Positions 21,778 to 63,874 of a stretch of 64,000 bases of DNA are shown here, piece after piece. The stretch lies in contig OX344752.2 in NCBI GenBank assembly GCA_947034885.2, forward strand, positions 6,820,001 to 6,884,000, given 5' to 3'. How positions within the stretch are numbered: position 1 is the stretch's first letter; each line of letters begins with the position of its first letter. The notes under the pieces were generated by a model that was not told where the DNA came from, did no database searches, and saw nothing but the letters and a program-made list of their open reading frames with translations. The translations under genes and the position numbers were made by a program. Source of the stretch: Thuidium tamariscinum (taxonomy: Eukaryota; Streptophyta; Bryopsida; Hypnales; Thuidiaceae).

Positions 21778-21781
21778 ATTA

Positions 21782-21848
<67 letters not shown>
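21778..21848. repeat. (AT)n microsatellite
   Basis: About 70 bases of alternating A and T with one ATACAT interruption. The shorter equivalent in R2 copy B is at 44223-44240, so the run has expanded in copy A. The ORF reading YIYIYI through it is an artefact. Confidence 0.95.
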
Positions 21849-21851
<3 letters not shown>

Positions 21852-24226: not shown

Positions 24227-24760
24227 ATATTCATTTCTTTTTTAAAGATGTTGTTGAGAAGGTCAAATGTTTGAAAGGCTATTATGTATTGTATTATGAG
24301 AATTTGATAATGAAAATTTAAAAATTGTGTATCATGGAATTCTAATTCTAATTTTTTTTCACTTATTTGATTCAAAATTGGCATTTAAGAATTGTGCTAG
24401 TTTGAATAGAAGAAAGTTTGTCTCCTTCTATGAGAAAAGGATGAGACTTCGACTAAACATGCAAAATGGATAGTTCTTTTATTTGCAATGAAACTTTGAA
24501 AAATTGCGTGAAACATTTCTAACTTTCCATAAAACTATAATTTGTCTTGTATTCCTATTTACAGTCCATATGAGTGAGTTGTGACTGTTGAAGTAAAGAA
24601 GAATCTCTTGCCTTCAATTCTAAAGATTGAAACTTTAGGAGGTCATATATAGAATTTGGATAGAGTTATATAATGAATTGAAATAAATTTAAAAAAATCC
24701 TAGAAGTTTGAGTGAACTTTAAAAAAAAACTATCACTCATTTCAATTTGACTTTTGAAGC

Positions 24761-36449: not shown

Positions 36450-36453
36450 TTAA

Positions 36454-37393
36454 CCCCTAAAGGACCAAACTGCTTTTTTTGGCAACATAGCAATTTTGGG
36501 CAGCTCATTACACAAGGAGTTTTTGATTTTTTTTCTTTGAAATTCTTACACAAGATGTGCCTAAAGAGTAGCTTTAAGGCCCAACAATTTTCATAACTTT
36601 TGACTACATAGTGAAAAAGTTATTGGCTAATATGTAATTTTTCTACTCGGTGGGCAACCTAGGCAACAAAAAAACTTCTTCAAAAATTACTTTTTTAAGA
36701 AATTAAAATTTGAAATTGATTTATTTAATTTTTATCTAAGTGGAAATATTTGAACCATTCCATTTTGATTAATGAGTCAAAAGTTGTGAAGATTTTTAGT
36801 TTGAGGTAGTTTTGGCTAGTTATAAAATCTCTACACTACAAAAAAAGTTTGAAATTTTTTATTTAATTCAATTTTTAATATTTTTGAAAAAAATAAAAAC
36901 ATTGGGTGTATATTGCTTAACACAACATTACAACCATTGGGGTTGTCTTTTTTTAACTCTATAAATAAATTGTTAATAATTTAGTATTTTGGCTCATTTT
37001 CTACTTCTTTCTACTTACTATTTTTCCTATATGTTGTACAATTTCAAATGATCTGAAAATTTTCAAGAATGTAGAAAACTTCACTTAAAAAATTAATTCA
37101 AAGAGTTACAATCATTTTGGACATTTTTCCACACAAATATGGTCTTCTGAAGTGTAGCTGCCCAAATTTTCGTAGTGGTCAAAATATGATTTTTGTCACT
37201 TCAAACACTAATGTCTTGCAATCTACTCAGTGGAAATTGGTGAAATTTTTTCCACATCTTCTTAAATTTGTGCTGTAAGAGATCCTACACTTACTTTTGT
37301 TAAAAAATGTTTTTTTCTAAAAATTCGATAGTTGTCTAAAAATGACATTTTTGAAGCTGTTTCGGTAAAAATATAGTCAAAAACCTTTAGGGG
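36454..37393. mobile_element. TTAA-flanked non-autonomous DNA element (940 bp)
   Basis: Begins CCCCTAAAGGACC, ends CCTTTAGGGG, and is flanked by TTAA (36450-36453, 37394-37397). Internally collinear with 38844-39789 and, in reverse, with 22147-23065. No coding frame. The target locus has no paralogue in this window, so only the flanking TTAA and family similarity support the call. Confidence 0.85.
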
Positions 37394-37397
37394 TTAA

Positions 37398-38839: not shown

Positions 38840-38843
38840 TTAA

Positions 38844-39789
38844 CCCCTAAAGCCCTGAATAGTGTTTTTTGAGATTATAAATTTTTTGGGCAGCTCACTA
38901 CGGATGGAGTTTTTATTTTTATTTTCTTTGAAATTTTGATACAATGTGTTCCCAAGGAGTAGCTTTAAGGCCCAACAATTTTCATAACTTTTGACTTCAT
39001 GGTTAAAAAGTTATGTCATGATATGTTGTTTTCTTTATTTGGTGGGCACCCCAGGCAGCTGAAAAAACTTCTTCAAATTTTTTTTTTTCTAAACTGAAAT
39101 TTCAAATTGGTTCTTTAGGTTTATATAGACATGTGAAGCTTTGAATCAATCCATTCTGATCAATGAGTCAAAAGTTATAAAGATTTTGAGTTTGGGGTAG
39201 TTTGCGGCTAGGTATAGAATCTCTACACTACAAAAAAAAGTTTGAAATTCTTCATTTAATTCAATTTTTCATATTTTTGGAAAAAAATAAAAATAGAAGG
39301 TATAGATTGTTTATTACAACATTTTAGCCATTGGGATTGAAAATTTTCAATTCCATGAATAAAATGTCCAAAATTTAGTATTTTGGCTCATTTTTTACTT
39401 CTTTCTACTTACTTATTTTTTCCTATATGTTGTACAATTCCAAATGGTTTGAATTTTCTTGAGAATGTATCCAACTTGCATTGAAGTATGAATTCAAAGA
39501 GTAACCACCATTTTGAATTTTTTTTCACACAAATGTGACCTTGTGAAGTACAACTGCCCGGATTTTTGCAGGGATAAAAAAACAATTTTTGTCAATTCAA
39601 ATGCTTATATCTTGCAATCTACACGGTGGAAATTTCTGAAATTTTTTCCACATGTTTACAAACCACCTTACTACAAGATCCTATAGTTACATGAGTTAAA
39701 ATGTGTTTTCAAAAAAAGAGTTGCACTTGTATTAGAAATGGCAGTTTTGGAGCATTTTTGGTGAAAACATAGTCAAAAACCTTTAGGGG
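38844..39789. mobile_element. TTAA-flanked non-autonomous DNA element (946 bp)
   Basis: Begins CCCCTAAAGCCC, ends CCTTTAGGGG, and is flanked by TTAA (38840-38843, 39790-39793). It lies in the same orientation as 36454-37393 and is collinear with it throughout. The right flank (TGATATCATTCACTAAC) is the start of R1 copy 2, where R1 copy 1 has a single TTAA (13732-13735 region). The left flank is not R1. Confidence 0.85.
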
Positions 39790-41320
39790 TTAATGATATC
39801 ATTCACTAACTTAGAAACTTTGGAAACTAGTTGTGGTGATCATCATGTTTTACAATACTTAGCAAAATGGAGAATTAGTCATGTCATAATTGATACAAGG
39901 TGGAACCAACAATAAGAAATTCAATATTGTCACTAGATATGCATTAAGTTAACTATCCAAATAATTGACCAAATAATTTGAACATGATTGGTCCTATTGT
40001 TACATTTTCTAAATCTTTATTGAATCTTGTTGGAAGTAAAATAGGATATTCAAGACTCTATTTCCATGCTTCTTTTGTATACATTATTAGTTTCTTAAAA
40101 TAATTGATAGCAAATGTATTCAAAATAAAGGCTCTCATGCTTTACGAGACATCAAGCTTAAATATAGATGGAAAGTTTCATAAACATGTCACTTATGATT
40201 TGGTACAATTGCTAGTATGCCATGTATTGTTGCCACAACCATTGGTATGTCATTTGTAATTGTTACAAATCTCATGGTGTTGCCCTTCTTAAATCTCCTT
40301 TCATGTCTATTTTTTTGTTTTTTGATAATTCATATTTTGATGAAAATCTATTGTTTTTGACACTTCTTTTCTTTTTAAAAAAAAGCAATCTTACACTTTC
40401 AACTCCATTCTTCAAAACAAATTTTTAAAATTCAAGTCTATAAGAATAGCCGGATTTGAAGGTGTTGCCTTTAGAGAAAAATATTAGTAGTGACCAAAGA
40501 AGCTCTAAAGTATTTACTGGTTGTGTAGATTGGCTAAATCACATGTAGTTGATAACTATCAAGTTTGGGGGGGTGGACTAAATTTTGCACACAACCAACC
40601 AAATATACTATAATTCAAAATTACAAAAACAATTCTAAAAAATCTAGCCATGCATAATGTGCCACTCAAATCCCAACAAAATTTTACGGTTTGACACCAA
40701 CAATCCCAAGTTACCAACCGCAAACTACCATGTCCGATTTTAGACCTCCTTGTTATCAATTTGCTATAACTCAAAATGTGCTTGCAATGGAAGCACCTAA
40801 AATCTTCAAAAATAAGTTGGAGCCAATTTTTTCTAAAAATAATATTTTTCTAATATTAGCAAGTAAAAATCATGAGTATTAAAAAAATTGGATTTTTCGG
40901 ATGTTGTATGTAATTTCTCTAATTTTCCAAAGTGTTGGCTCTCTAGACCACTAAAACTGTATAATAGATGCACCCAAAACTAAAACTTACTAAAATGAGT
41001 AGCGAACCAATCAGATATTTATATGTGTAATTGAAATGAGCTAGCCAATTAGAATCAAGCATGTGGCGAATACATTAAGGAAACTCTAATGACGCAATTG
41101 GATGAGTCTACAGTTTACTGCAAGGGACATGTCCGTGAATGGGTGTTTCTCCCTTATGACAAACCATCAGAAATGCCACACTTGCATCCCTTAAGTTCAA
41201 CAAATGCTTTCAATATGGTTCCCTTTGCAATATCAATTTAAAATTTGTTTTCCAATCATATTGACAACAATATTTTTATTGGGTTTTCATTTCTAATCAC
41301 CCTTTTGAAGTCCCCAACAC
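39790..41320. repeat. Dispersed repeat R1, copy 2 (uninterrupted)
   Basis: Matches 13728-18035 with the insertions missing. It preserves the empty target sites of the solo LTR (ACAAC, 40591-40595) and of a TTAA element (TTAA, 41191-41194). Recurrent short ORFs at 40222-40428 and 40691-40882 have no domains. Confidence 0.82.
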
Positions 41321-41581
41321 TATCCTCTGAAAAGATGTGACCCACTCTAGTTTGCATTTGCACACCCTCCCCCTCCCCCTCCCCTTCTCCAAAAATTTAT
41401 AGGTTGTTGATAGTTTAAAAAAAAATGGTGACCTTCAAAATCACCGTCAATTTCTCAAAAAAACAGAAGCCACTGATCTTGTGAGATTTAATCTTAGACA
41501 TCCAAATATAGATACAGATACAAATACAAATATTGAATATATATATAATATTGAAATATTAGATATGGATACATATATAGT

Positions 41582-41635
<54 letters not shown>

Positions 41636-41666
41636 CTTATATAATACAAAATATATATATAATACA

Positions 41667-41698
<32 letters not shown>

Positions 41699-41849
41699 AT
41701 ATATATACTGAGTAAGGATACGAGTAAAATCCCATATGGATTGTCAATCACATTGGCTTTTGAGGATTAGAAGAGGTGAGGAGATGCAAATTTTAAAAAT
41801 TAAATTTTTGTTTGTTTGGAAAGGAAGTGAGGAGAGGGAGTTAATAATT
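41321..41849. repeat. Spacer with (AT)n microsatellites
   Basis: Alternating AT runs occupy about 41586-41632 and 41652-41700, preceded by a GATACAAATA-like stretch and a CCCTCCCC run (41367-41388). The ORF at 41481-41711 is a product of the microsatellite. Confidence 0.85.
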
Positions 41850-44800
41850 TCTTTAGGTGGGTAAAAAACACATTTTGCATGCTTTCAAAGGAGACCTTTG
41901 TAGTCCTGGATGTAACTAATTATTATTCCTCATCTTCTAGAAATGTTTAGGTACAATTCACACAATGTAACATTGAGTAGCAAGGTTGGCATTGCCTTGG
42001 CACTCCAGTGATGGTGATGAATATGCCACACCCAACAGTATTCATCAATAGCTGATTGGTTGGGTGTAGAATATGCCTCACCATCATTGAAGAGGCATGA
42101 CATGCTACTGAATGTTATGTTGGAGAGAATACTTGTAAATGTCATTAACCCTTAAAGGACGGGCCTATAACCACTGATTTTAAGCTTCAATGCTATCCCT
42201 CAATTTGTTGCTATTTTTGAACTATACATGTATGAAATTTTATATATTTATTTTTCAAAGATGAAACTACATATCTTCTTTACTTTACAAAAAATTTAGA
42301 TTTTTTTGACAAAAAGTGATCTCTACGAGAATTTTAAAAGAAAAAGTGAAAAAAATCACATCAAATAGAAAATTATTTCAAAAAATCTAAAAACTACAAT
42401 ATGGGTGAAAATTATTCGGACAAGGATCATGGTATAAACTTAAATCTTGTGTCATTCCATAATTAGAATTCAGAAGACATCAAAAATATATCAAAAGTTC
42501 AAATTGCAATAAAATACTCAATATTACAATTTTTTGCAAAATTTCAATTGGATTTGAAAGTAGAATATATAACCTTCTTTTTTTAGTTGGGCTCAAATTC
42601 AAAAAAATATCATGTTTGTGAAGAAACTTTAGATTAACAATAAGGAGCCACAACTTTCCAAAATACACTCAAAATAGCATATATATTTTATGATCCGTTT
42701 TTTACTAATTTCTTGTTCACATGAAAACAAATACTCATAAAACTACAAAGTGAATTAGGTACACTTTATAATCCTTCATAGGAGGTCAAGGAAAAAAAAA
42801 TGGATGAAAAATTGCTTTCAATGTCCATCCTTACCATTTGATGCAAAGTCATCAAACCACCAAGAAATGGCATCATACTATTAGGTTCATCCTTAGAAGG
42901 CCTTTGGGGTCTCTCTATATTGATACCAAAAACCTATATATAGCCTTATAATTCTTCAATTGTAATTCAAATATATGAATTGTAATACATTATTATTTAT
43001 ATACTATCATAATCATTATTTTATTTTGAATTGAAAATATTGTTTAATGTTTTTTTGAATCAAATCCAATATATTCATGATATATTATATTACCACAAGA
43101 TATTTTTGAGGCCCTTCTTGAATCAAGATGTAAACACCCGATACCATCCTTGCTATATCTACTTGTGTCCAATAGACTTTCCTTAACCCCTAAAGGACCA
43201 TTTTCCTCTAGATGATAAAATAAATTTTGGTAAGCTCCTATAACCTCAATCCTTTTATGAAACTACTTGCAACTTTCTTAAACATATAAAATTTCATTAT
43301 CTTCGTAGGAGTGTAGTTTATATTTTAATTAGTGCACAAAAAAAAATTAATACTACAAAAGGCCAAATTTTATTTGGTGTACAAATATAAGTTTTCTCAT
43401 AATTTGAAATTAATACTTGTAGACTATATTTTTGTCTACATGTGAAGCTTTGATTCATTTCATTTAGATTATTGATGTGAAAGTTATGAATAATCTTGTT
43501 TTAAGGGCAATCTAAGTATCTTTTAAAAATAATAACTCATCGGATTGGCATTTCTAAATGCAATTTTCATACTTTTCTAGAAAAAAGTGTTTGAGAATTT
43601 GATGTTTTGTTTTCCAAAACGATCTCACCACTTGGAAATTATTTGTATTCCAATCCCATCTTAGAGCTATAAACAATTTAGTTTTTGTTTGAATCTCAAT
43701 TCTACTACTTTACTTCACAATTTTTTAAATAATGAAAATTTATTGTCAATTCTTTTTTTCATTTTTTTTTCAAAATCTTACACTTTCAACTCAATTCTTC
43801 AAAACAAAATTTTTCCATTCAAGTCTATAGTGCAAACATTTCCCACAAATGGCGGTCAAAGTCAATTGAAATTGCAAATTAGTGTTAAATTTTTTTTTCC
43901 TCACTTTGAATGCTAATAATTTCTTATCTATATGGTCAAACTTCATGAAATTTTAATCATCCAATCTTACACCAATAAAGTCCATATCCTACAAATAGAT
44001 GTATAAAAAAATGATTTTAAATGTGATTGCAATAAAAATGGTAGTTTTGAGTGTTTTTTGACGTAAAGAAATGACTTTGGTTCTTTGAAGACTATTAAAG
44101 TGTCTTCCAATAGTGTCAATTAGTCACCCCAACATTTAAGTGATGTTTGTTGAGTATTGATTTCCTAAATTTTGGTTTTAGAATTTTTTTTTTACCTAAA
44201 TGTGGTGTCGTGCCGCAGATGTGTATATATATATATATACATGATTTTTTTTAAAATCGATTATTGTAAAGTAGTAGGAGAAATGACATTATTTGAAGTG
44301 GCTTCACGGTGACCCCTTTTCATTGCCATGACAAACAAACTATGAAGAAGAGGTTTCATTCAAGAGCTTCATTGTTTTTCATGTTGTTTTTATTCATTTT
44401 TCATTTTAGATTATAGTATGTTAGACTAGAGGGTTTTTCCAATTGAGCGTGAATTTGAATTTTTGTTGTTGCAACCACCGGAACAACTTCTATTGCCGTT
44501 GGATCTTTCATTGCCACTTAAGGGGGGTTGTAGTCACCAATGATAGCTTAAAGAACCAATCATTCTTTTAATAAAAGCAAATCTTATACATTATGTCGCA
44601 GCTAACATCAAATGCATTCTTAAGTTCTTGTAAATGGAATGATACATGGATTGAAGCTCTATTTTTTTACCTCTACTAGGCATAAATAAGTTCCTAGTGT
44701 TTTTTATTCTATATTTGAAGTATTTCCTTCTTTAATTTGTATGTAAAAAGTTGTAGAACGGAAATATACAAATAGTTTACCTTCTAATAACTTTTGGGTG

Positions 44801-45398
44801 ATTTATCTTCTAGCTAAGGATATAAAATTAGTTTAATGGTGAAAACATAAGACAAATGAAAAATGAAAGAGCCCTATGGTCAAAATATGGAGAAATTAGT
44901 ACTTAACTTGTATGATTAAGGTAGGAGGTAAGGTGGAGGGAAAAAAGAGGCAATATATATATTTTTTTAAATGTTGTTGAAAAGGTCAAATGTTTGAGAG
45001 GCCATTGCCATTGTGTATTGTATTATGAGAATTTGATAATGAAAATTAGAAAAATTGTGTATCATGGAATTCTATTTCTAAATTTTTTTCACTTGTTTAA
45101 TTCAAAATTGACATTTAAAAATTGTGCTAGTTTGAATAGAAGAAAGTTTATCTTCTTCTATGAGAAAAGGCTAAGACTTCAATTGAACATGCAAAATAGA
45201 TAGTCTTTTATTTGCAATGAAAATTTGAAAAATTGCTTGAAACATTTCTAACTTTCCATAAAACTATAATTTGTCTTGTATTCCTATTTACAGTCCATAT
45301 GAGTGAGTTGTGACTGTTGAAGTAAAGAAGAATCTCTTGCCTTCAATTCTAAAGATTGAAACTTTAGGAGGTCATATATAGAATTTGGATAGGGTTAT
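41850..45398. repeat. Dispersed repeat R2, copy B
   Basis: Collinear with 19400-24660. It lacks the TTAA insertion (empty TTAA at 44518-44521) and the 723-bp inverted-repeat insertion (uninterrupted AT stretch near 44954) that copy A carries, but has its own copy of the latter element starting at 45399. No gene is visible. Confidence 0.8.
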
Positions 45399-45841
45399 GG
45401 GTGATTGCAAGAAACACCTGTCCTATTTGTTGCGTTTGGCTGATTTTTTCGGGAGTACTTTAAAATTAGAAAACTAATTTTAAAAAAATTTGAAAAATAT
45501 GAATAGCGTATATACCTCTACAATGAAGGTTTTTGCGGAAGGAAATGGATATAAACATTCTCTAAGTAGGAGAACTTGAAAAGTGCCAAACCTCCAAAAA
45601 ATACATACCTTCATGTTTTAATTAGGTAAAAATAGTAAAAGTAGATATTTTCAAAAAATAAAAAGTGTCCATTTGCAACAACTTTATGGAGATGTTTATT
45701 CACAAAAAAACCCACCGAAATAATATTTTATATGTTTCAAAATACAAGCAGAAGGGAACTCACTGTGTAGACTTCCACACCTCACAAAATTAACTTGTTT
45801 TTAAAATCATTCCCTAGAGAGCTAGAAGTCTACTAGAAGAG
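45399..45841. mobile_element. Left part of a second inverted-repeat element, split by the Mutator-like element
   Basis: Begins GGGTGATTGCAAGAAACACC, a diverged version of the end seen at 23504, and follows that element's sequence up to CTAGAAGTCTACTAGAAGAG, where the 12.9-kb element is inserted. The sequence resumes after it at 58780 (CATCTCATCCAAATTTCATG, then ACCCCTAAACTACC near 58846-58860) before becoming unrelated. It was present before the Mutator-like insertion. Confidence 0.72.
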
Positions 45842-45905: not shown

Positions 45906-48900
45906 AATTTCTCAACTTTTTTTGGAATTTTTAAAAGTGGGGCCTAAGACCGTGGAAAAAGTTTTAGGGTGGTTTATAAATAGGAAACAAATGAATTTAG
46001 AACACCAAAGTCCAACAAAGGGCATAGAAAGGGTTTAGAAGTAAGAAAATAGTAGATATACATTCAGTACAGTGATGGCTGATAGAAGCAAGTAGATACC
46101 AACACAAAATATCATATACGAGTATAGTGGGTTCAAAATCAGAGAGTCTAGGTGGGTCTAGGTACTACTAGAAGACCCTGATGTAGAGCTCTCACCACTC
46201 ATCGATAGCTCACTGTCTGACTCTATAGCAGACTCATCTACAAACAATGATACTCGTGGATCCGTTCTACGAGATTTAAAAGATGGTTGAGTATCTATGG
46301 TCTGAGAGTGCGTGGCTACTGCCTCAACATACACGGGTAACAAAAAAGGTTTAGGAGGGCTAGGGAAAAACGTCGGTTTAGCAAAGAATGGTCGGGATGT
46401 CTGCATCTTCATTTCGGCTGCCTGCCTACAAAATCATGACACCAAATGTCAGATACAAAACACTGGAAACTCACATTCTCAAAGTATTGAAAAAAAAGAA
46501 CTTACTTACTGAAGCGCGAAGTCTTCTGCAACTGACGAATTGGTACCACGTCCTCATCGTCAGCAATTGGGATAGGTGTAGAGCTTTGTGGAGTTGGCTC
46601 TGGAGCTGAAATGGGGCGTATGAGTGGAGCTAAAACTGCATCAAAAATGCTCTTATCCTCCTCCAACGCTACAATGTGGCGGCCAGTAGCTCGACAAGCG
46701 TAGATGCTTGCTCCTGCAAAAGCCCAAACACATTAAAAGAAATGAGACATGAAGTTCAAAGTTCAAATGCCAAAGACATGTGTTAAAACACTAAATCAAG
46801 TGATAAAGAGTAAAGAATAAAACCTGTAGAGGCTGTGCAATCCATGATGATGTTACTAGGCGAGGTAGTTCCCTCAATGATCATTTGCATGAATGATCGT
46901 GCCTTTTCACGAGAACCACGCCATGGAATGGTACCATTCATTGCCAAATCCTCTTTCTCACAACAATTTAGAACAAGATCATCTCTGCCAATGTCAAGGT
47001 CGATGGCCTAGTGCGCTGGAACATGATGAAATGCAAAGCGGGACTTCTCAGACTTCACATACAAGTTCATTTTGAAGCGCACAGTCTGCAAATCCAATTC
47101 AGTACATTAGAATCAATGTAACATTTTCAAGATGGAAAAAAAAATCAATTTGAAAAGACCAGAAGAACATATCGTGGAAGAATGGTCTAGTGGATTGGTA
47201 AGACGTAGTCTGTTCCACACCATCCACTCCATTTTCGATGTAAATCCATACTTTTGAGAGAAATCCAAAATATAAGATCGAATCTCACGACTTAGAGAGT
47301 ACATGAGAACAAGGCCACCACCATCATGGAGGTAGTTCTATGCGAAATCAAAGATTGTCTGTAGCCACTCTTCTGAAAAGCTGTTCCAATTTGGAACAGA
47401 GGATGGCGGAATAGAGATGTTAGGGACAGGTAAGCCCTCAAGAACATCTACTATAATGAGATCAACTAAGGCCTGCTTAGTAACAACACCATCGAAGAAA
47501 CGATCCTTGTCCAAAGCATGCTGCAGATAAGAGAAAACAAGGGACACTTTTATTAATAAATTCATACAAGTTCAAGACCAACACAAAGAATTTTTCCACA
47601 CTCACCCTTATACTATAAAGAAACAACATGTTCATATTTCAAAGCATTGACTACATAGAGAATTACCTTTTCCAGAAGGGAGAGAACCGTCGTGAATGAA
47701 GCGGGGATAGGGCCATCATCTGAACCAAGCAAATTGGTGAGAGATTCATTTAGAATGCATTCATCCACATTGGCATCCACAACCGCAACCGGAGCCAAAG
47801 TCAAATTGCCCTGTTTCATCTGAGATTTTGTAAGCGAGAATCCCGAGGAAGTGGGATTAGCGGCCCCATCACTTGTCACATGCTCCACTGGAGTAGCCTC
47901 TGCCTTGCGTTTCTTCCCCTTCCTCTTCTCCTTAGTGTCGCTCTTCGCTTTCTCAGACAATCTCTCTCTCTTTCGCACCTCGGTGTCTTCTAGCTTCTTC
48001 TTGGCCGCCTCCCACTGCTCCCCTTTCTTCTTATTCTCCAACTCCCGCTTCTTGATGGCCTTGTCACGAGCCTCACCTTCCAATCTAGAGAACTCATCAA
48101 CCTCCGACACCACAACAATAGAATCCTTGATATTTTGGAAGAGCGCTAGTTCTTCAGGTGCTGTAAATCCCTTGCTACAATCCAAGTACCACGCACCAAG
48201 TTGAAGATGGCCAACTGGCCAAAACTTCAATTGAGTGGGTGAAAACATACAATCGGATGATGTCGAGTCACGCCACGTGCGTAAGAATGGGGGCAAATCT
48301 GACTTGGAGATAGCTTGCTTCCCATATAATTCAAATGTAAAGTATCTGAAGAAGTAAAACACAACACAAGTGAATACCAAAGAAAAATACAAATCATGAA
48401 ATTAACAACCATATTATGCTCATACTAAATCTTGGTGAAGGTAAAAAAAAATGAGACATCAATGAGAACACGTGATGGAAGCAATAAAGAATGATGCTTT
48501 TGTGATCATGAGTTATGTCAATATGTACATTACATTCCAAAGTCATTGCCGACATTCCAAATTCCTCCTAAGAACTAAGGTAAATAACCGAAGGTGCAAA
48601 TCAAAAGGAAGTGAAAGAACTACCTATATAAGACCCGTCTCACGACAAGAAGGGAGCCCTTATAGTCTTTAAAGGACTTAGATTTCTTGAATGCCTCAGC
48701 ACCTTTGAAAACTCCGGGATATGAGTGCTCCCACAACTTCATCCTCCAAGACTTGATGTAGTCAGAAAGAGACATTGGCTCAACGGGCACGTCCATGTTA
48801 ACTTGGATGTTGTCAGACTTGAGGATGGTGTCATACAACTCAAGAGCTGCATCCTCCAACTACACACAAATGGGAATCATATCAGCACATCTAGGCAAGT

Positions 48901-50610
48901 CATCCTTACTAAGCGTTTTAAATAAAAGCATAAGAAATGAAATGCACATCCATACTTACCCCTGCAAACCATACCGCCTTCGATAAGAAAGATCCAATCT
49001 TATCGTCATTAGCTGGTCGGGGTGGAACTCGACGAGCTTCACAAGTAGGAGCGGATGAGTTTATCCACTTCAGCCACTTCACCTTGTGTTGTGGGCTAGC
49101 ATTGGCAGTAGCAATAAGTTGAAGCTTGTCAAGCGTCAACTCCTGGACACTATACAAACTCTAGTGCCTCTCAATCTGCAAGCATAAAACAAGACATAAG
49201 AGAGTAGAATTGAACATAAGGTAGCAAAGATGATGACAAGAATTGTAAAGCTATAATGACGCACCTCTTTCAACCAGTCATCTCCCAATGCTGGATTAGC
49301 AACGGACACAATCTTAGAAAGTTTTTTATAAAGCTTGTCTGTGGCATCCTTAGTAGCACTCCTCATAGCATTTGTAATACCAGCACTACATACATCTTCT
49401 GGGGCAGTCTCCTCTTGATACTTGCGAACTGCAGCATCTGATGCAAGAGATATTTCTTGTTGCCAAAACAAGAAAGAGTTCATGAGCAATTCGAATGTTA
49501 TGACAAAATCAACAAATAAAACAAAATATCCTTCGAAACTGAATTACAAACCAAGAGGACAAAGTTTACATTGTCAAACCTGAAAAATGAATGTGGTGAA
49601 TACATCCAGGGGCATCGTATACCAAGTCTTCCTTTGGGCGTGGCCGCCGCAAAGTTTAACTTCCTCTGGGCTCAAGAGCTCCGCAAACTTCTCAATGGAC
49701 ATGGTTCCATACTTACGAACACGATAGAGTGTGTGGACAAGGTTTGTCTTCACAAATGAATTCTTCGTGTGCCTTCACAAACAAACACACTATAAGCATT
49801 CCAAAAGGTCAAAAGATATCTCCATACAAACAAGTGGTAATTAGAAAAGAGAACTCACTTGTTCACATCATGCATGACTTGCATTGCTGTCCCAAGCCTA
49901 TCCTTCGTGTCCAAGACGATTGAGTCCACTCGAACGTGCCACTTTGCTTCTCCACCGTGAAGCCTTTTGATATGCCGCATCCAAGCAGCATACCTACGGT
50001 TGCCATTGCAAATGTAGAACTTGGCATCGACCAAGTGCTGCAACTCAATGTAACTGCGGAGCTCCTTGTTGAATTCAGCATTCACTGAATTCCAAATCGG
50101 TCCCCATTGAAGCTTCTCATCCTCAGAAAATACACCAACCTCACCCTCGTCGTTTGAGACAGAAACATAAAATACTCTTGCTCCATCTTCGTACCCGTGA
50201 ACATACTTTGTCTCCAACTCATCCACATCACAATTCAAGGTGGGCCGAACCATTGGCATGGGGACCATACGACATAAAGGAATTGCCATTCGGGAGAGAT
50301 GATGATGAAAAATTCTCATACTAGCAATTGTTGATATTGAATCAACGTTCTGGGATCTTCGAATTTGGTCTTCATCCTCCGAGGTGGTGACCGGTAGTGA
50401 ACTCGAAGGAACGCCCTGCCCATGAGAATCTCCTACGACAGCCTCAGGATTCGGTATTGAAAGAATTGGAACACTATGGTCCTTAGTAACTTCAACTACC
50501 ACGTCGGAAGAGGACGGATGTAGGGATGTAACACGCATATCATCCACCTGATCAGGCAGTAGGAATATAGATGGATTTTAGCACAATTCGAATACATATA
50601 AAGACCTTCT

Positions 50611-52042
50611 TGGGATGGGGTGTGATTGCCCACCCCGAACAAGAACAGGAATACAGTTTTTATAAAAAATCATAGCCGCGGCCCCTCTCAAGCGGGCTCT
50701 CGGTGGCGAGAGAGCCCGGGGGCGCGCGGCCGTGTGGGGGTGGGGTGTGATTGCCCACCCCAAAACAGGAACAGGAATACAGTTTTTCAAAGAAAATCTT
50801 TGGCCGCGGCCCCCCTCACGTGGGCTCTCGGTGGCGAGAGAGCCCGGGGGCGCGCGGCCGAGTGGGGATGGGGTGTGATTGCCCACCCCGAAACAGGAAC
50901 AGGAATACAGTTTTTCAAAAAATATCTTTGGCCGTGGCCCCCCTCAGGCGGGCTCTCGGTGGCGAGAGAGCCCGGGGGTGCGCGGCCGTATGGGGGTGGG
51001 GTGTGATTGCCCACCCCAAAACGAAGATTAGGTACTCAGTTTTGAAAAAAAAAACTTGGCCGCGGCCCCCCTGTCATGGGCTCTCAGTGGCGAGAGAGCC
51101 CGGGGGTGCGCGGCAGTCTGGGGGTGGGGTGTGATTGCCCACCCCGAAACAGGAACAGGAATACAGTTTTTCAAAAAAAATTCTTTGGCAGCGGCCCCCC
51201 TCACGCGGGCTCTCGGTGGCGAGAGAGCCCGGGGGTGCGCGGCAGTCTGGGGGTGGGGTGTGATTGTCCACCCCGAACAAGAACAGGAATACAGTTTTAT
51301 AAAAAAATTCTCTTGCCGCGGCCCCCCTATCATGGGCTCTCGGTGGCGAGAGAGCCCGGGGGCGCGCGGCAGTCTGGGGGTGGGGTGTGATTGCCCACCC
51401 CGAACAAGAACAGGAATACAGTTTTATAAAAAATTCTCTTGCCGCGGCCCCCCTCAGGTGGGCTCTCAGTGGCGAGAGAGCCCGGGGGCGCGCGACAGTC
51501 TGGGGGGTGGGGTGTGATTGCCCACCCCAAAACGAGAACAGGTATTCAGTTTTGAAAAAAAAATCTTGGCCGCGGCCCCCCTTAGGTGGGCTCTCAGTGG
51601 CGAGAGAGCCCGGGGGCGCGCGGCAGTCTGGGGGGTGGGGTGTGATTGCCCACCCCAAATCAAGAACAGGTACTCAGTTTTGAAAAAAAAATCTTGGCCG
51701 CGGCCCCCCTCAGGTGGGCTCTCGGTGGCGAGAGAGCCCGAGGGCGCGCGGCAGTCTGGGGGGTGGGGTGTGATTGCCCACCCCAAAACGAGAACAGGTA
51801 CTCAGTTTTGAAAAAAAAATCTTGGCCGCGGCCCCCCTCAGGTGGGCTCTCGGTGGCGAGAGAGCCCGGGGGCGCGCGGTAGTCTGGAGGGTGGGGTGTG
51901 ATTGCCCACCCCAAATCGAGAACAGGTACTCAGTTTTGAAAAAAAAATCTTGGCCGCGGCCCCCCTCAGGTGGGCTCTCGGTGGCGAGAGAGCCCGGGGG
52001 CGTGCGGCCATCTGGGGGTGGGGTGTGATTGCCCACCCCAAA
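50611..52042. repeat. GC-rich tandem array, about 11 units of 127-130 bp, inside an intron
   Basis: Each unit starts near GGGGTGTGATTGCCCACCCC and contains an A-rich stretch (ACAGTTTTTCAAAAAA-like), CCGCGGCCCCCCTCA, then GGGCTCTCGGTGGCGAGAGA and CGCGCGGC. Two hairpins per unit are evident: GGGTG/CCCACCC and GGGCTCTC/GAGAGCCC. Unit starts fall at about 50615, 50740, 50868, 50996, 51125, 51255, 51383, 51509, 51636, 51763, 51890 and 52017. The array fills most of the intron 52090-50548 of the cargo gene, bounded by GAG|GTACGA and CAG|GTGGAT in phase 0. Long ORFs on both strands follow from the stop-free GC-rich sequence and are not genes. Confidence 0.9.
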
Positions 52043-52369
52043 TGCAAGAAACAAACCAAACATTCAAGAGTATAGGTCTCATTTTCGTACCTCGAGATCA
52101 AGTGGATCATTCTCTTTGTGGCGCACGGCGGTGGCTTCCGTCCTCACAATCGCCCCGCTTCGAGTCTCCATTGATTCTACCCGAACAATCTGAAACCACG
52201 AGATTGTTTCATTAGAAGAATTTGCAACAAAACCAGTAAAATGAAATCCAAATCGGAGGAATGCAATCACAAATGAGGAATCAGTATTTTGAGAAGTAAA
52301 TTGATTGTGGGAATGCAGAGGTCTATACAATCAAAATTCACACCAAGAGGACAATGAGATCACGCGAAG

Positions 52370-52535
52370 GAGATTCGAAATCTCGAGCTGGGTAGCAACA
52401 ACCTCTCCAGAGGGTGCACGCAAAGTGCCGCGGTGGGAGGGAGAGAGGTTCGTCGGGGGCCTGTTCGCGCCGGCCTCTGCCAAGGAAACCTTAATCGAGA
52501 TCCTGCTGGGCTCAGGCCGGCGGGGGTCATTTTTT
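52370..52535. other. GC-rich island in the first intron of the cargo gene
   Basis: About 160 bases much richer in G and C than the surroundings (GGTTCGTCGGGGGCCTGTTC, GGCTCAGGCCGGCGGGGGTC), ending in a run of about 18 T. No repeat copy elsewhere in the window was seen. It could be a small retroposed sequence, a captured gene fragment or a regulatory island. The frames (52305-52613 plus, 52331-52594 minus) give no domain. Confidence 0.45.
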
Positions 52536-53037
52536 TTTTTTTTTTTTAATTTCAAAAAAAATAAATATTCTCGAATATTAAAAAAGAATATCATAGTATT
52601 TGAATTGATTTGAAGATAGTTTTAACACCTATGTAATTGGAAATTTGGAAGATATATTGAATTGAATCGGTGTGCAATAGAATGAAACAAACCTTGCATA
52701 CATGGAATACCATGCATTGGGTTTGGTGAGTACAGGAACTTACATTGCATGGTTGAGTTCTGTTGACGTTCTTCTCCTGGATGTGCGCAAGTAATTTTGT
52801 GTCAATACTTGGGCGAGGTAGTCCACCATTCTCATTGACTCCATCTGTATAAGTATCTTCCGGCATCCTATTCATATCTTCTCCCTCATTCGGTGATGAC
52901 TGAGCAATTTCAAAATGTCTGCGTCGGTTTTCACGAGACATTCTCAAGGACTTCAAACTACTAAAGCATCGACTCATCCCCCTCTTTCTTTTCTTACTTA
53001 CAGACTTCCTACTACATTCGGGAATGGATTCAACCAT

Positions 53038-53906
53038 AATTTGGCGTCTCTATGAAAACTGAATTCACCCAAGTATTGAATAACTCCTGACTTATAGATG
53101 GATACATGTCTACTCTAACGCTTACCTCCTATCTCAAAAATGAATTATTCCATAGTGTGAAATCATAATTTATATGTCTACAGGTTGACGTTGTCCGTTA
53201 GTATCTTAGTATCTCTGGTTTCAATTTTTGAACTTCCGATTTCATTTGATCCTATATTTACGCTAGAAGTGGATTTGGGTGTAGATTCGAAAGTCACCAT
53301 TGTTATGGTATTTCACAAATGAATTTATTGGTCATTCCTTTAAAAAAGGACTGATGTTCATGGATTTCTGATTCTTAATTCCTGAGCACTTTGCAACGGA
53401 TTAGTCTATCCATTATGATCATACTATATATATTTCAGTTACTTATATGTTGTACTTCTGAATTTCTAGGTGGCAAAATATTATCAGATTCTTCTCTGCA
53501 TTTGTATTTACTATGGATTTACAAGATGTGATTTTGTCCTAGGTAAATCAAATTGTCTATACAGGTACCTGTGTCCATTATGAAAAGTTAGGTTGCCTAC
53601 TGGAAGTTGAAACTCAAAAAGATTATGTGGACTGTAAGCACATCTTGGACTGACAAGCGCAATATAACAAGATTTCGAAACATGATATTATTCCGTTCTT
53701 TAGTACTCATCAATGTTTTTTTCATGGGAATTTGATCCACTTAACGTCATTTTTACCTGATTTCCTTATTGGCGTTCTACAATTGAATTATTTTTAAAAA
53801 TACTACAATTTCATGACTTCTAAACAAGACAGCGTCTGCTTAAAGTCATGATGCATCACAACGGAGACAGCTTTCACTTTTCATTTTCCAATACTGTGTT
53901 CATGCG
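53038..53906. promoter_or_regulatory. Divergent intergenic region of the Mutator-like element
   Basis: About 0.87 kb separates the start codons of the two divergent genes. It is AT-rich with no long frame and must carry both promoters if the element was transcribed as annotated. A TATATATA-like stretch occurs near 53427-53433. Nothing more specific can be assigned. Confidence 0.5.
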
Positions 53907-56900
53907 ATGGCCTCAATCAGAGCAAATGGGCACGAGGTCCCTCTTCTTCTTTGTCTTGACTCCTCTGGTCTAGCAGAAGTTTCAAGTCACCTGCTTCATG
54001 TGCGATATGGTTTTGTTGAGTCTTCTATCTATGTGGAGGAAGAGATACTTTCTGAATCTGGGACGCTTATCCACTCGATTCTTATCCGCAGAATTAGAAA
54101 TGATGACGGACCTTTTTGGAGCTTAGGTGCAGGTCGTTATAGGGCATATGGATTAGCATCAGATGTCATGGTTGCTTCAACAGAAGTTTTGACGCCAGTG
54201 TCTGTGCCCGACGCAGCCTCTATTACTACGTTGCGAGCCGTCAAGATAGAGCCCAATGGACTCTTGCCCTCTTCTCTTCATTACGGTCTTCCTTCATCAA
54301 AGGATGATGAAGGAAGTTTCTCTTGTCCTGTTGTTGAGTTGTCTAGTGATTCAGAGGAAGTCCCAAAGAAGTATAACAGCCCTGCATCTGAATCAGAAAC
54401 GGTTGGGACTTCTGTCCACCTTGGCACATCTCAATCCGTTGGTATGCGAGATAGTAGTGCTGGTAGTTCAGTATTTTCTCGGCCGCCGTTGTATCCACAA
54501 GAGCAAGGCAGTTCTAGTGTTATAGAATCTCTGAAAAAGCTACGTAATATTCGAGGGTGCAAAAACGAGCTAGCTCAGATAGATTTTGATTCGATTGAGC
54601 GTAAGGCAATTCCATTTCTTCCTACATCATTTGACGGTGATATTGTTCTAGAATTGCCACCTTGTCGTTCATTACCCTTGTCCAGCTCTTCTAAGAGTAT
54701 GACTGGCATGGACAAACGATATGATGGTCATACGTGGTGTCGCACGATGACCTCAAACATTCACAACAACCTTGGACTAAAATTTAGGAAGTCTTCATGC
54801 GTTGGTCACCTTATTTGTACAAACACATCTTGCGATTACATATCTAGGTGTTCAAAGAAAAACGAGACTGAGTGGATGGGTAATACTAGTACTCCGTTTC
54901 TCGTAGGGTCAATACCACCACGAGATTCTACATTAGTGTGTAGAATTTGTAAAGCTTCACCTACCTGTGTCAGTTTCTGTGACGCTAGGATCTACTATGT
55001 CATAGGATCATCTCATATGACCCGGGCTTGCATTCACCTAGGCAATCATAACCACCCGGTTCCAGATGGTCTTTGTCGAGATTCAGTAGACACCATTTCT
55101 GGCCTTCTAGAAAAGGAAGTCGCAAAAACTCCTACAGCTAAATCCTCCGCAATAGCTTTAGCTGCTAGCAAGGAATTCCTGGATACGTTTTTGGTTCATT
55201 CAGGTGATTCTCCGAAAGAAATGTTGAAGGGGCCTGACTTGGATGCAGTGATGGACAAGTTCCAGGTCTTAAGTTCTCCAAACGTTCGGAACATCATTGC
55301 CTCCTTTCGAAGCAATGGCAGCGGGGGAGGTGAGATCGACCGCTTACTTGCAATGAAGAAGCAGGCCAAGATCGAGTTCATTCATGACAGTGTATTTCTC
55401 GGACAAGGACAAGAGAAAGTTTACCTCTTCAAGATGCTAGTGGATGGCCCTGGCAGTGGAGTCGATCTTGTGAAGCGCATGCAAGCAAGTGGGGATCTAG
55501 CAAATTGTTGGCTTATGTTTGACCATGTTAAGCGTATCAAAGGATGGACCACAATCACTTGCCATGTTTATGATTTGATTTATTGCAAGGTGATGACTAT
55601 AGCGGTTTGCGACATGCAATCCGAGGACACGGAGGGCTAGGCCATTATGTGGAGATGCTTAAATCAAGTTATGGAGAAAAATGGCTTGGACAATCCCAAC
55701 TTCAAAGGCTTCATGGCAGATAGTGCTCAAGCAAATTGGAATGCTGTTAGGATCGTTTATGGGTCTGGTGATGCATCCATCAAAATGGTTGATAGAGAAC
55801 GCACATGTCTTTTCCACTGGGCAACTTCTTTGAAACAACACACGGAGCGACTCATCAAGAGAGATATGCAAGTGCAACACGTGAGGCTTTGTAGAGATTA
55901 CAAAGATGCAAAGACTCTAGACAAAGCGGAGAGCAAGTATCTTCAAATCAAGGCATGGTGGTATTCGTCCGATGCAGCCTCTGAAGAGTCCCTGAGAGAG
56001 CTAGAGCTATGGTTAGCTTTTTGGCACTTCCGTTATCGCCAATGGGGTGGATTCATGGAGACAGTAAGTATTTTCATTTTTTTATTTCTTCTTTTACAAA
56101 GTCCATGTTGTCTTCATCACAGCCTTAGTTTCAAGATTTTCACATATGAACTATTCCTACTGAGTGAACTTACCCCTCAGTTGCAACTGGGATCGTCCTC
56201 TGAATCCTATCTCGCCACCGAGAGGCCTTCACTGTAGGATTGCGGTTTCCCATTTCGTAGCCAATATACAACCTCTCATCTTATGGAAAGGGTCCGTGAT
56301 CCACTGGTGATTGATTGATGTCGCGGCCTTGGCCCCCACTTAAACCACAGGTCTAAATGAAAACACTTGTATGTCCTAGCCGGATTTGGTTCTTTCTGTA
56401 TTAATAGTCAAAAGTATCTTGGATATCTTAGGACAGTTCTTTCATGGTATTTGGTGAATGACTGTCCCTTCTTTAAAATGGCTATTGAGGATTTGTTATA
56501 TTATTCTCATTTCTCACTTTTATTAACATATCCTATCACTGTACTTCCAGAGTTTGTCAGCAGACGAAGAAGCGGATATTCCATCCTGCAACCTATCGGA
56601 AACAATACACAACAAGTGGCTTCAAGCATCTGGGAAACGTGGTACCGACTTATATGTTGCCACTTGTGACGACTGGATTCGAGTATTTATGCAAATGACT
56701 AATTATCGCGTGTACCTGAATGGTGGACCTTCTGGAATTGGACCGTCCCGACATGATCTGAAGTTAAAGCGAGCAGTAGCATCAATGGACGGGAAGAAGA
56801 TTACTGATGCGTTGTGCAGTATGCCTGGTGTGGAGGAACTGTGTACACGTATACCCCATTTAGAAGGAGAGGAAGTCTTTGGCTCCACAAAGCGCAAGCA

Positions 56901-57924
56901 TGATGAGCCTATTGGGGCTGAAGGTGATTCTCACCACCCAGATAAGGTCAATTTCTCTCACCCTAGAGTACAATTGAAATCTGGCACTGCTCTGAATGCA
57001 TCTACAAATGAAGGAGATCCAGCATTTCTTCATGTCATGCACGTTTTGGAGACGGATTGTGACCCTTCACAGTGGCACATTGCTCGCATTTCTGTAAAGT
57101 CCAAGAGGAAGTGCCATGCCATTCAAGCGCAGACGGAGGTGAAGTGCAAGATGTCCATAGTTCGAGGTTCTAAAGCTGTAGCAGCACCAATGTATACAGG
57201 CCAGATACGCGAGTACAAAGGTATGAATGTTGAAACAGATGAGTTCTGGTTTTGCCCAGATGACATTCAACGTTGCGTTATGGGACCTAGGAGGTCTCAT
57301 GTCCTTAGTCGCCTTCAACTCCCTGAAATCTGGCCTGTGATGTTGGGTACAAGTCTGACTTCTCATGAGATTATACTTTTTCAAGAAGCTGGATTTCGCC
57401 TTCAGGAGCGCCCATCACTGTCTCCGCGTTGCTTGTTCACATCTTCCAAACTTTTCGAGGTTTTGGAATGGAACTACTCAAAGGCAGCTCACTGCGACAA
57501 GCCTCCATGTATTCAAAATGGAAAAAACATTCGGAGGAATGACAAGGCACCCACTAATGATCATCAAAATCAATGGGAGAGTGCAAGAAATGTCACGGGC
57601 AATATCCTTGGAGTGAACATCCTCCCTTATCCAGGACTTGGAGTTGTTATCACTTTACAGTCTGGTGTAGAACCTCATCACATGGTATATCGTGTTACTA
57701 TTTCAAATTTCCCAGCTTGCACTTGCTTGTACTTCATTGGTATGTTGTCTGCATCCATCGGCAAGAGAGGGAAGTATGTTAACTGCAAACATTTATATTA
57801 TATTTTCCGTTATTTGTGCAAGGTTGACCCAAAGAAGGACAAGTTCATTCATGCCCCTAGCTTTAGCATGGATGAGATTATGACACTACTAGAGAAAGCA
57901 AGAATGATAAAAATAAAGGCCTAA
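53907..57924 (+). pseudogene. Mutator-like transposase (DDE core, SWIM finger), one in-frame TAG
   Basis: Exon 1 (53907-56063) starts MASIRANGHEV. Residues 1-280 are acidic and Ser-rich. About residues 295-390 form a Cys/His-rich zinc-binding-like region (CTNTSCDY, CRICKASPTC, HLGNHNHPV). The RNase-H-like core follows: VCDMQSED, then FMADSAQANWNAVR (second Asp, about residue 603) and CLFHWATSL. The intron 56064-56550 has GTAAGT and TTCCAG and is phase 0. Exon 2 (56551-57924) begins SLSADEEADIP and supplies the third acidic residue in NLSETIHNKW. It ends with a SWIM-type finger (CTC, then CKHLYYIF), typical of MULE and FAR1 proteins. TAG at 55638-55640 interrupts exon 1 between EDTEG and AIMWRC in unchanged frame; a CAG-to-TAG change explains it. 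The 9-bp duplication at the element ends fits this enzyme family. The protein would be nuclear and bind the terminal repeats. Confidence 0.82.
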
Positions 57925-58779: not shown

Positions 58780-58788
58780 CTAGAAGAG

Positions 58789-60003
58789 CATCTCATCCAA
58801 ATTTCATGTTAAAATCATTAAAAAAAAGGTATAGCTCATGTACTAAAACCCCTAAACTACCAAGCAAGGGAGTATAATATAAAAATCTTCAATTACATGT
58901 ACCTATCTAAAGTTGATATGTTTGTAAATATAGCAACACGATCCTTTAGGGGTTAATATTTTGTTTCTTAATTCTTTCAATTGCACTATTTGTCTAACTT
59001 TTCTAATTTCTTTCTTTTTATTAGCACTTTTTCATTTATCCATTTAATTCCACATCATTGTCCTAAAATTCTCACTATTGCCTATTCCAAAATCCACTAC
59101 TTTATTGTCAAGAGTTGATTCTTTTTGTTATAGATGAGTTGCTAACTTCCAACCTTTTATAGCTATTATTTTAAATATCTTTAGAATTAGTTCATAAACC
59201 ATTGTGGCACTTGGCTCACACACTTGGAACTTGGAGACTTTAGGGATTAAGACTTCATTAATCCAAATCTTTAACACCTTAGGATTTTGAAGCCCATATT
59301 CAAGATTGTGAATAGAGTGATTTTTCAATATTGTTTTGTCCAAATAACTCCTCATTCATTCAAAGTGATGCATTAACTTCTAAAATAGAACTTATTTTGT
59401 GATTTGGTTGATCAATTTGAGGTCTATAATATATTTGTTCAATAATATAAGCAAAATTATGTGTAAATATGAGAAGGAATTTGGATATTATTTCTTTGAA
59501 GATTAAGGATATACAAGTTTTAAATGACCATTTTGATGATTATGTGGTGCATAATTTTTAAAAAAAATTCCTACTACTTTGAATGAAGTATACTACATAA
59601 ATTGGTTAGGGTAATTTTTTCAAAACAAATATAGATGAATCCCTATGTGAAATCTTCATAAATTTCTAACATTAACCCCTAAACACTCAAACTATATTTT
59701 TTGGCAACATTGCAATTTTGGGCAATTCACTACAAACAGATATTTTATTTTATATTTTAAAAATTTTCACTTAATATGCGCCCAAGGAATAGCTTCAAGT
59801 CCTGATAATTTTCATAGCTTTTGACTATATGGTAAAAAAGTTATGGCATAGTATGTCACTTTCTTTACTTAGCGGGCAATTTGGGTAGCAAAGAAGGCTT
59901 CCTTAAAAATTAATTCTTTCAGTGCATTGTACAACTCATAAGTGCTAAGCTCAAGCTCACTGAGTGGCGTGAGTGGATTGGGGAGTGGGTTGGGGTGAGT
60001 CGA
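58789..60003. repeat. Repeat fragments right of the Mutator-like element
   Basis: 58789 to about 58865 continues the split inverted-repeat element. A TTAA-family right end (CCTTTAGGGGTTAA) lies at 58943-58956. A TTAA-family left end begins at 59676 (TTAA at 59672-59675, then CCCCTAAACAC) and runs about 260 bases before being cut off. The last 80 bases resemble the GGCGTGAGTGGGTTGGGG text of 3975. No gene is supported. Confidence 0.6.
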
Positions 60004-61026: not shown

Positions 61027-63874
61027 ATGCAGCATAACATAAAGATCCCCACAGATTTTTACAAGAACTGTTCGGAAGAGATCGAAGCGGACCTGCTGGC
61101 AGCCACTAGGGAGGTTCTGAAGACGGGAGTACTCTCAAAGTCGCACAACAGAGGTATCATAGCTCTGATCCCAAAAGGGGGGGATGCCACGTTAATTAAA
61201 AACTTCAGACCGATTACTCTATTATCCTCGTTTTACAAACTAGTGGCCAAGATACTGGCAAGGAGAATTCAAAAAATACTTCCAGACATAATTAGACCTT
61301 CACAGACAGGATTTGTGAGGGGACGCTGCATAATAGATAACATTTTTTAAGCCCAAGAGGCCATACATTATGCGGAAGAGTCGGGACAGGACTTAGTTCT
61401 TTTATTGTTAGATTTTGAGAAAGCCTATGATAGAATTTCATGGCCCTTTTTGAAGGCAGTCTTAGAAAAAAGGGGATTTGATCCGACCTTTATTAAGGGA
61501 GTGATGTCGATGTATTAGAATCCCTCTTCGACAGTAGTGGTTAATGGAGAATTGGGAGAGGAGTTTGATCTGCAAAGGTCGGTGCGACAGGGCTGTCCCC
61601 TCGCACCGTATTTATTCATATTAGCCTTCGATACACTCGGCTTTATGCTTGAGGATTCGCATTACGGAGTTCAGGGATTCAGACTCCCGAATGGAAAAAC
61701 CGTACGGGATGCGTCATTTGCAGATGATGCTTCCTTTTATCTGATCGGGATAGAGAGCAACCTGAGTCGGGTTGCCAGAGTTTTAGATTTATTTTGCTTG
61801 GCTTTGGGTTCACGGGTCAGTTGGGAGAAAACGGCCGCAATTTGGGCTTCTAAAAAGAAAAGGAACTTCGAGTGGGGTAAGGAAATGGGTCTCAAATGGG
61901 TCCCAGAGGGAATAGGTGTCAGATATTTAGGTCCTATGGTGGGTTTTCACCTGCCCAAGGACGCAAATACGGTCCCATTATTGGACTCGCTTAAGGCAAA
62001 GCTCCGTTCATGGGCAGCCAAAACAGTTTCACAGGCCGGGAGAGTGCTGATTTGCAATCAGGTCCTCCTTGCGACTTGCTAGTATATAGCAGCATGCTGC
62101 AGTATCACACCCAGAATGTGTGACAAAATTCGCTCGCTCATCACCCAATATTTGTGGACGGGGAAAGAAAACGGTAGGACAGCAGCTAGAGTCAGATGGT
62201 CCACGTGCATACTCCCGGTGGAAGAGGGAGGATTAGGTCTGATAGATCCCTTTTTACAAACACAAGCTTTATTGGCTAAATTAACGGTGAGATGTTTAGC
62301 CCCGGGAGAGGAACCTTGGAAGAGTCTTTTGCGTCATCGTTTAGAACAGGGTAAGCCATTAGGTGATGCCAAATGGCACAGATCTTATGCCTGGCTGCTA
62401 TTCAGCAAAGGCATCAAACGAGAAAATCACTCAACGTTAGTCCAGGCCTGTATCAAGGCATTCATAGCGATTCGGGGGAATCTGATTCAGAAAAACCCCG
62501 AAATACTCAGTGAGGTCTTTAGACAGCCATTGTTTGGCAATCCAATGCTGTTGGAAGACGAAAACATGCCGTTGGGGAGAGGCCCGAATAAAGGATTACA
62601 CCTTTGGGCCAGAAGCGGGATAAATAAAGTAGGAGATTTGTGGGATCTCGAAGGGGAGGACTGGATTTCGGTAGAAAGGATCCAGGCCAGACTGCCTAGA
62701 GCAGGAGCAGTCACGGAGAAGAGGGCCGAGAAAAGGAGAATAGCCATTTCACACATCCCATGGGAGCCTAGGGCATTCCCAAAACAAAGAGAAGTAGAAT
62801 GGGTTATGATAGAAAACGACGCTCGGGTTTTTCTTAAAAAGAAGACAGGCCAAAACCAGGCTCACTACTGTAGTTTTTATAAAAAAACCCGGTTCTGAGA
62901 GACTCTACAGGAGCGAAGGTCAGGACCAGCCACCAGACGGGGAGCAGATTGAGATTAGGGTGGTTCAGTGGGACTCAGGGAAGTGATCCTTTTATGATTG
63001 CAACCCCCAAACCCCACTGGAGAATCCAGATACAGTGTGGCATTTTCAAAACGAGCAGTTGAGAAACCTGCAGTGGGACCCAGGAGAATGGAGCTAGGGG
63101 AAAACTGGTAGAATTAATCAAGCTCCTTTCTTTGGGTATACGGTCAGGAGAGGATATACGGTTGGGTTACAAGGGAAAGAGGAGACATCTACTGGGATGC
63201 AGGAGCTCATTAGACAGGGTTTAAATCGGGAGCAGAGAAGAAATATTTACAGGCTAATGTAGCATGCATCGAGACCCAGGAAACCAGCCATGTTGATGTG
63301 GCAGACTCTGAATCGGGGTATTGTTACGGGAGAGTGGCTGTCGTGGAGAGTCCAGATGGCTGCGCACAGTTGTCCGAGTTGCGGACACCATATGGAAACT
63401 GCTGCTCACTTATTTTGGGAATGCAAATTCGCCAAGGAGTTGTGGGGGAGAATTGATAGATTGGGCACGGTTTGGGACATTCCAAGAATCAGGAGCTTCC
63501 AGGACGCTCTTTTGGGGAGAATTAGCAAGAGCAGCTCTTTCAAACTTGACAAGTATGTATACGACTTTCAGCCCTGGGACCTGCTAAGGTCTTTCGTCAT
63601 GTGGCATATCTGGATCGAGAGGTGTAATGCGAAGTATTGCACCCTGGACTTCAGCGCGAAGAGGGTTATTCAAGCCGCGTGGATCTCAGTGATTCACGCC
63701 AGGATGGTGATTAGACAGGACTTCAGCGCTAGGATTAGGAATAGAGAGAAACTTAAATCTGTTAAGAAGCGATTTGAGGCCTTATGGGCCCCCGTCTTCT
63801 GTCACCCTGGAGCTTATGTTTGGAAGTTTAATCTTCCTGATTCTTTAATGTCATTCGTTTTTGCTTTTATGTGA
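61027..63874 (+). pseudogene. 5'-truncated L1-like LINE: reverse transcriptase and C-terminal zinc-binding region
   Basis: The copy starts within the RT fingers (IPTDFYKNC). It continues with IALIPKGG, NFRPITLLSS, RPSQTGFVRGR, LLLDFEKAYDRISWPFL, RQGCPLAP and the catalytic FADDASF, all diagnostic of plant L1-type ORF2. After the thumb region the frame runs to 62898. A frame-disrupted gap follows, then 63290-63874 encodes the zf-RVT region (CPSCGHHMETAAHLFWEC) and a C-terminal tail. No upstream AP endonuclease remains, as expected from incomplete reverse transcription. In-frame stops occur at 61348-61350 (TAA), 61516-61518 (TAG) and 62080-62082 (TAG). Higher GC than the surrounding DNA suggests a fairly young insertion. 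No poly-A tail is seen before the window ends. Confidence 0.88.

Follow-up and report, generated by a model that had tools for sequence, protein, structure and literature searches.

The element and its two genes

The window, the 64,000-nucleotide stretch of Thuidium tamariscinum DNA that was analysed, carries two divergently oriented genes: a transposase gene on the plus strand and, on the minus strand, an accessory gene of about 12 exons that spans 53037 to 46158 in a model placed by hand. Both genes lie between sequences that match the ends of a much shorter relative, copy A (23501-24229), a 729-bp internally deleted element recognized by sequence comparison, whose inverted ends differ by one mismatch over the 35 bp compared, flanking AA included. 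The left 445 bp of copy A correspond to 45396-45840 (76.7% identity, E 3.8e-91), the left end of the large element, which starts with TATGGGTGATTGC, and its right part (23939-24021) corresponds to a right subterminal stretch at 58781-58863 (77.4% identity, E 2.4e-11). Judged from these alignments, the accessory gene resides within a cut-and-paste DNA transposon of about 13.5 kb or more. No right terminus of the large copy could be located between 58863 and 64000, and the last 230 bp of copy A aligned to 58860-59400 with a score of 25, a value reached by 37 of 200 shuffles. An end of another repeat family, TTTAGGGGTTAA, occurs at 58945.

The first part of the transposase gene (53844-56063, plus strand), which runs from a putative start to a GTAAGT donor, encodes a Cys/His-rich stretch followed by LMFDH (55512), FMADSAQANW (55710), and CLFHW (55806), and is interrupted by an in-frame TAG at 55638-55640. 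The second part (56551-57924, plus strand) encodes CNLSETIH (56587) and a C-terminal CxC..CxH pattern resembling SWIM (57712-57807). By eye, the D..D..E-like series with CLFHW after the second D, the Cys/His-rich N-terminal part, and the C-terminal CxC..CxH give the protein the look of a MULE transposase, a resemblance short of a superfamily assignment. Pfam searches with three pieces of the transposase gave no transposase-family or SWIM match; one piece matched Smr below the cut-off (E 0.0081).

Mutator-like elements generate target site duplications of 8-11 bp, and Sola1 elements of 4 bp. Copy A is flanked on both sides by ATAT, or by AT, depending on where its end is set, and inspection by eye of this one copy revealed neither a 9-bp repeat nor any 8-11 bp duplication, which speaks against Mutator. 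The ATAT flanks would fit the 4-bp rule of Sola1, with the caveat that they are AT-rich, that a 2-bp duplication is equally possible, and that this is a single case. The initial annotation had described the locus as a Mutator-like transposon; the gene does lie within a DNA transposon, whereas the absence of a Pfam transposase family match and of an 8-11 bp duplication at copy A leaves the more specific label unproven.

Copy A itself is situated in a duplicate of 44518-45398, where the corresponding empty site falls at about 44957-44962. A pair of long collinear duplicates occupies 13730-24669 and 39789-45398; compared piece by piece they share about 88-95% identity, and the insertions nested within them differ. 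Fragments of a third copy, weaker for the most part, lie between 1104 and 12959. Other repeats in the window include a family with TTAACCCCTAAA ends (22143-23069, 36450-37397, 38840-39793, and 59672 onward), of which the first three have TTAA at both borders and the fourth shows the left end only, as well as palindromic repeats at 1-843, 3220-3429, 4496-4691, 5027-5246, and 11044-11325 that match their own reverse complements at 79-94%. Also present are a decayed LINE at 61519-63871 (plus strand; RVT_1, E 4e-8, and zf-RVT, E 4e-9, in separate open frames) and a 400-aa open frame at 27711-28910 (plus strand), which encodes an OST-HTH/LOTUS domain (E 1e-8) and may be part of a host gene. The zf-RVT domain of the LINE, like the style of the genes, fits a plant host.

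Exons, relatives, and decay of the accessory gene

Within the hand-placed 12-exon model, GT starts 10 of the 11 introns, AG ends all 11, and the reading frame is kept at 9 of the 11 junctions. Exon borders were chosen to fit GT-AG, such that these counts alone constitute little proof. The gene nevertheless exceeds what chance would produce because exon 3 and exon 9 match relatives at very low E values, and with the exception of exons 1 and 2 we regard this multi-exon gene as real on the basis of those matches. Exon 1 (52744-53037), taken over from the initial annotation, and exon 2 (52091-52189), which offers a possible start at METRSG, were placed from splice signals only, with the relatives giving exon 1 no support. 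Between exons 2 and 3, intron 2 contains a 128-bp minisatellite (50608-52050; 11.3 copies, 90% matches). Its unit and the start of the large element both contain GTGATTGC, possibly by chance.

Exon 3 (49859-50547) carries the ParB-like core, FYICNGNRRYAAW, together with a downstream VMHDVNK, and is represented in 21 relatives. The gene model continues past this core with exon 4 (49580-49772), followed by exons 5 (49265-49455), 6 (48960-49175), 7 (48624-48859), and 8 (47667-48345), the last of these partly charged and of low complexity. Exon 9 (47173-47520) includes the slot for methyltransferase motif IV, which reads DVLE, along with LHDGGGLVLMYS and W-x-x-W. Exon 10 (46824-47085) contains KSEKS and the motif X-I block (EKARSFMQMII..IIMDCTASTG), exon 11 (46506-46713) completes the methyltransferase motif I region with GRHIVALEED, and exon 12 (46158-46425), the last, encodes a serine-rich tail and the stop. 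Counted from the ATG of exon 2, with X at internal stops, the spliced protein comprises 1117 aa. The peptide strings quoted in the initial annotation (GNRRYAAW and VMHDVNK in exon 3, LHDGGGLVLMYS in exon 9, KSEKS and IIMDCTASTG in exon 10, and GRHIVALEED in exon 11) were all recovered on the minus strand where they had been placed, apart from a reported W-x-W that proves to be W-x-x-W (WMVW).

The copy in the window is a broken pseudogene: an in-frame TAG interrupts each of exons 6, 9, and 10, the exon 5 acceptor does not match the phase of exon 4, and no GT donor in phase is available to exon 9. Ending exon 9 at 47173, as comparison with the relative P0001 indicates, preserves the frame and leaves AT as the next bases. 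Good GT-AG sites had been claimed; that description holds for 9 of the 11 junctions and fails at two faulty splice sites, the exon 5 acceptor and the exon 9 donor.

A search of 5.77 billion sequences with exon 3 alone yielded 395 candidates, of which 21 matched at E<=10; all of these lie at E<=8e-32 (E 6e-81 to 8e-32, identity 44-63%). Some of the clusters to which they belong hold many sequences (21 for P0017, 15 for P0010, and 11 for P0015), as a repeat family would. The C-terminal query returned one relative, P0001, among 124 candidates (58% identity, E 2.9e-36), in an alignment that spans 49% of the query and includes exon 9. When the window sequence and the 21 exon 3 relatives are aligned, the core G-N-[HR]-[RQ] is found in 20 of the 22 rows, the exceptions being P0020, which reads DDNHR, and P0022, which ends before the core. 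DGNHR is present in 16 rows, GNRR being a variant of the window copy, and MHD[VI]NK in 20. The alignment ends exactly in NK in 17 rows (the window and 16 of the 21 relatives), which is where exon 3 in the window meets its donor, and this shared end suggests a conserved splice point.

ParB-like and methyltransferase-like parts of the protein

By motif, the exon 3 core and the downstream VMHDVNK resemble ParB, making a ParB fold plausible for this part of the protein. PF02195 was not among the Pfam matches (E<=10) of the 22 aligned members or of the whole protein. The family matched by most members, the ParB-like phrog_1033, was hit weakly by 5 of the 22 (best E 0.18), in the window at residues 186-213 of exon 3. 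Structure prediction from the 22-row alignment gave a mean pLDDT of 57, with the best blocks (pLDDT 83-89) in residues 141-190, most of which precede the core motif, and values of 67-71 at residues 191-220; the order of strands and helices in this low-confidence model fits, by eye, that expected of ParB/Srx. Fold searches with the model (Foldseek, VIA-align) produced no significant match, PDB sequence searches turned up no chains other than those of CTR9 or KMP-11 (best E values of 0.28 and 0.045), and hhalign to the ParB proteins of P1 and N15 performed no better than shuffles. Of the earlier ParB/Srx-like assignment, what stands is the core motif; Pfam, PDB, fold, and hhalign searches added no significant match.

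The C-terminal 231 aa gave clearer results. Among PDB entries they match 5hfj (E 2.2e-5) and 5hek (E 2.4e-5), both titled 'Adenine specific DNA methyltransferase (DpnA)' and which we take to be M1.HpyAVI, and more weakly CcrMI (6pbd; E 0.016) and MboIIA (E 0.071); the whole protein matches 5hfj at E 2.7e-4. The nine distinct C-terminal PDB matches at E<=10 comprise four DNA methylases, four mitochondrial dimethyladenosine transferase 2 entries, and one VirB9. Methyltransferases account for four of the five PHROG matches (best E 8.9e-4), the fifth having no known function, and 17 of the 20 listed records, from 79 found at E<=10, are annotated as methylase or methyltransferase under the match (best listed E 1e-2). 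In hhalign, the window sequence alone scored 38.8 against a profile built from 81 phage methylases (E 3e-5, 59 columns), compared with at most 23.6 for 60 shuffles; the score falls to 37.2 once P0001 is added. These comparisons identify the C-terminal block as a homolog of permuted amino-methyltransferases, in agreement with the ancestry first proposed for it. The proposed profile check itself, using PF02195 and PF01555, was less favorable: the former is absent and the latter (N6_N4_Mtase) remains below the Pfam cut-off for the whole protein (11.9 bits versus 26.7, E 0.22), whereas the PDB and hhalign searches support the methyltransferase homology.

The automatic alignments from the PDB and hhalign span the X-I block and stop short of motif IV, and the permuted order also put forward initially, in which motif IV precedes X and I, depends on a placement of motif IV by eye. 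At that slot, the window reads VDLIIVDVLEG, P0001 reads VDLIIVDVPEG, and the phage consensus is VDMILCDLPYG. The canonical catalytic (D/N/S)PPY is absent at this position, being replaced by DVLE in the window and DVPE in P0001, and the missing DPPY noted earlier is thereby borne out. Motif I reads MDCTASTGA in the window versus LDNCAGSGTT in the phage consensus; it lacks FxGxG (DCTASTGA) and, on this comparison, is degenerate. These readings come from two sequences covering the motif IV slot and one covering motif I, the window copy among them being a pseudogene. The block is akin to phage and bacterial permuted amino-methyltransferases (PF01555; 5hfj; CcrMI, 6pbd) in its aligned X-I portion (E 2e-5), and unlike them in having DVLE in the DPPY slot, an altered motif I, and a score below the Pfam cut-off. 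Catalysis by the methyltransferase-like block appears doubtful because the motif IV slot reads DVLE or DVPE and motif I is degenerate. In the rotifer methyltransferase N4CMT, changing SPPY to APPA, which replaces Ser and Tyr, abolishes 4mC methylation (PMC8885841).

Known systems and possible roles

The closest described counterpart is Sola1-1_Ec32 of Ectocarpus, whose published description includes a 1104-aa protein with ParB and N4/N6-methyltransferase domains encoded opposite the transposase, and mentions similar proteins from green and red algal transposons (PMC12477816, 2025). In both systems a large DNA transposon encodes, opposite its transposase, a protein of about 1100 aa with a methyltransferase-derived domain and a ParB-like part, the latter recognized in the window by motif; they differ in host, in the altered motifs IV and I of the window copy, and perhaps in transposase class, and the likeness is one of description rather than of sequence alignment. 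ParB-methyltransferase cargo as such is already known from algal transposons; among the matches listed from the open-licence literature, there was no land-plant case. The earlier view that no plant element of this kind had been described is consistent with that search, but the same architecture is in print for the brown-algal Sola1. To these cases the window adds another family, rich in introns, in which the catalytic motifs are altered and the transposase has different features. Bdelloid rotifer N4CMT is likewise a bacterial-type amino-methyltransferase in a eukaryote that is tied to transposons, although it is a host gene that marks them, with a chromodomain instead of ParB and with SPPY intact (PMC8885841).

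We favor, at a probability of roughly 0.45, a DNA-binding accessory protein without catalytic activity, directed at its own transposon family in a manner analogous to VANC anti-silencing. The protein, encoded by an accessory gene divergent from the transposase gene of a cut-and-paste element, would derive from an amino-methyltransferase of prokaryotic type linked to a ParB-like domain, and would most likely now be mainly DNA-binding. Its ParB-like part would recognize the element's own DNA, candidate sites being repeats such as the 128-bp array, and the methyltransferase fold, with its altered catalytic and cofactor motifs, would serve as a binding or scaffold module. The protein might then shield or un-silence its own family, as proposed by analogy with VANC of Arabidopsis VANDAL elements. 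VANC proteins bind noncoding tandem-repeat regions of their own family and induce the loss of silent marks, and the parallel extends to an extra plant-transposon gene, the action on its own family proposed here, and tandem repeats (PMC10398659); unlike the window protein, VANC is not known to have ParB or methyltransferase ancestry. The array in intron 2 may be a binding site of this kind or an ordinary minisatellite. Copy A lacks it; if copy A moved, the array is therefore not needed in cis.

That intact copies encode a working DNA methyltransferase which marks the element itself with 6mA or 4mC, a possibility raised in the initial annotation, seems unlikely to us: the permuted block is recognizable in the PDB and hhalign comparisons, but PPY is missing from the motif IV slot of both sequences available there and motif I reads DCTASTGA against the phage DNCAGSGTT, such that marking of its own DNA is unsupported here. 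For their Ectocarpus protein, the authors do suggest marking, with a predicted N4C or N6A activity (PMC12477816). We hold it similarly improbable that the protein is a second transposition factor, which would bind or pair the transposon ends and aid the transposase with no relation to silencing. The divergent layout of two genes within one element would suit such a factor, as would the fact that ParB proteins bridge and cluster DNA; set against this, an unsystematic look noticed no repeated site at the ends, and the methyltransferase part would have no obvious role in end binding. Least probable, and in our estimation very unlikely, is a captured passenger or an older piece nested inside the transposon and without function for it. 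The decay of the window copy is what such a passenger might show, but the exon 3 relatives retain long, open, and conserved exons across the 22-row alignment, and a matching layout is described for an algal transposon (PMC12477816).

Extending the favored reading, that of a non-catalytic DNA-binding protein, one could imagine that a prokaryote-derived ParB plus amino-methyltransferase module for binding and marking moves among transposon superfamilies that are unrelated to one another, in algae as well as in plants, and that in plants it has become a dead reader that protects the element from silencing; we consider this broader scenario doubtful on present evidence. If intact copies exist, they would provide a testable system for how a transposon can turn a bacterial scaffold of DNA modification to use within host silencing or against it, and the catalytic question could be decided by long-read methylation calls. 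The accessory gene would also widen the range of a cargo already described in algal transposons, possibly so as to include land plants and a different class of transposase.
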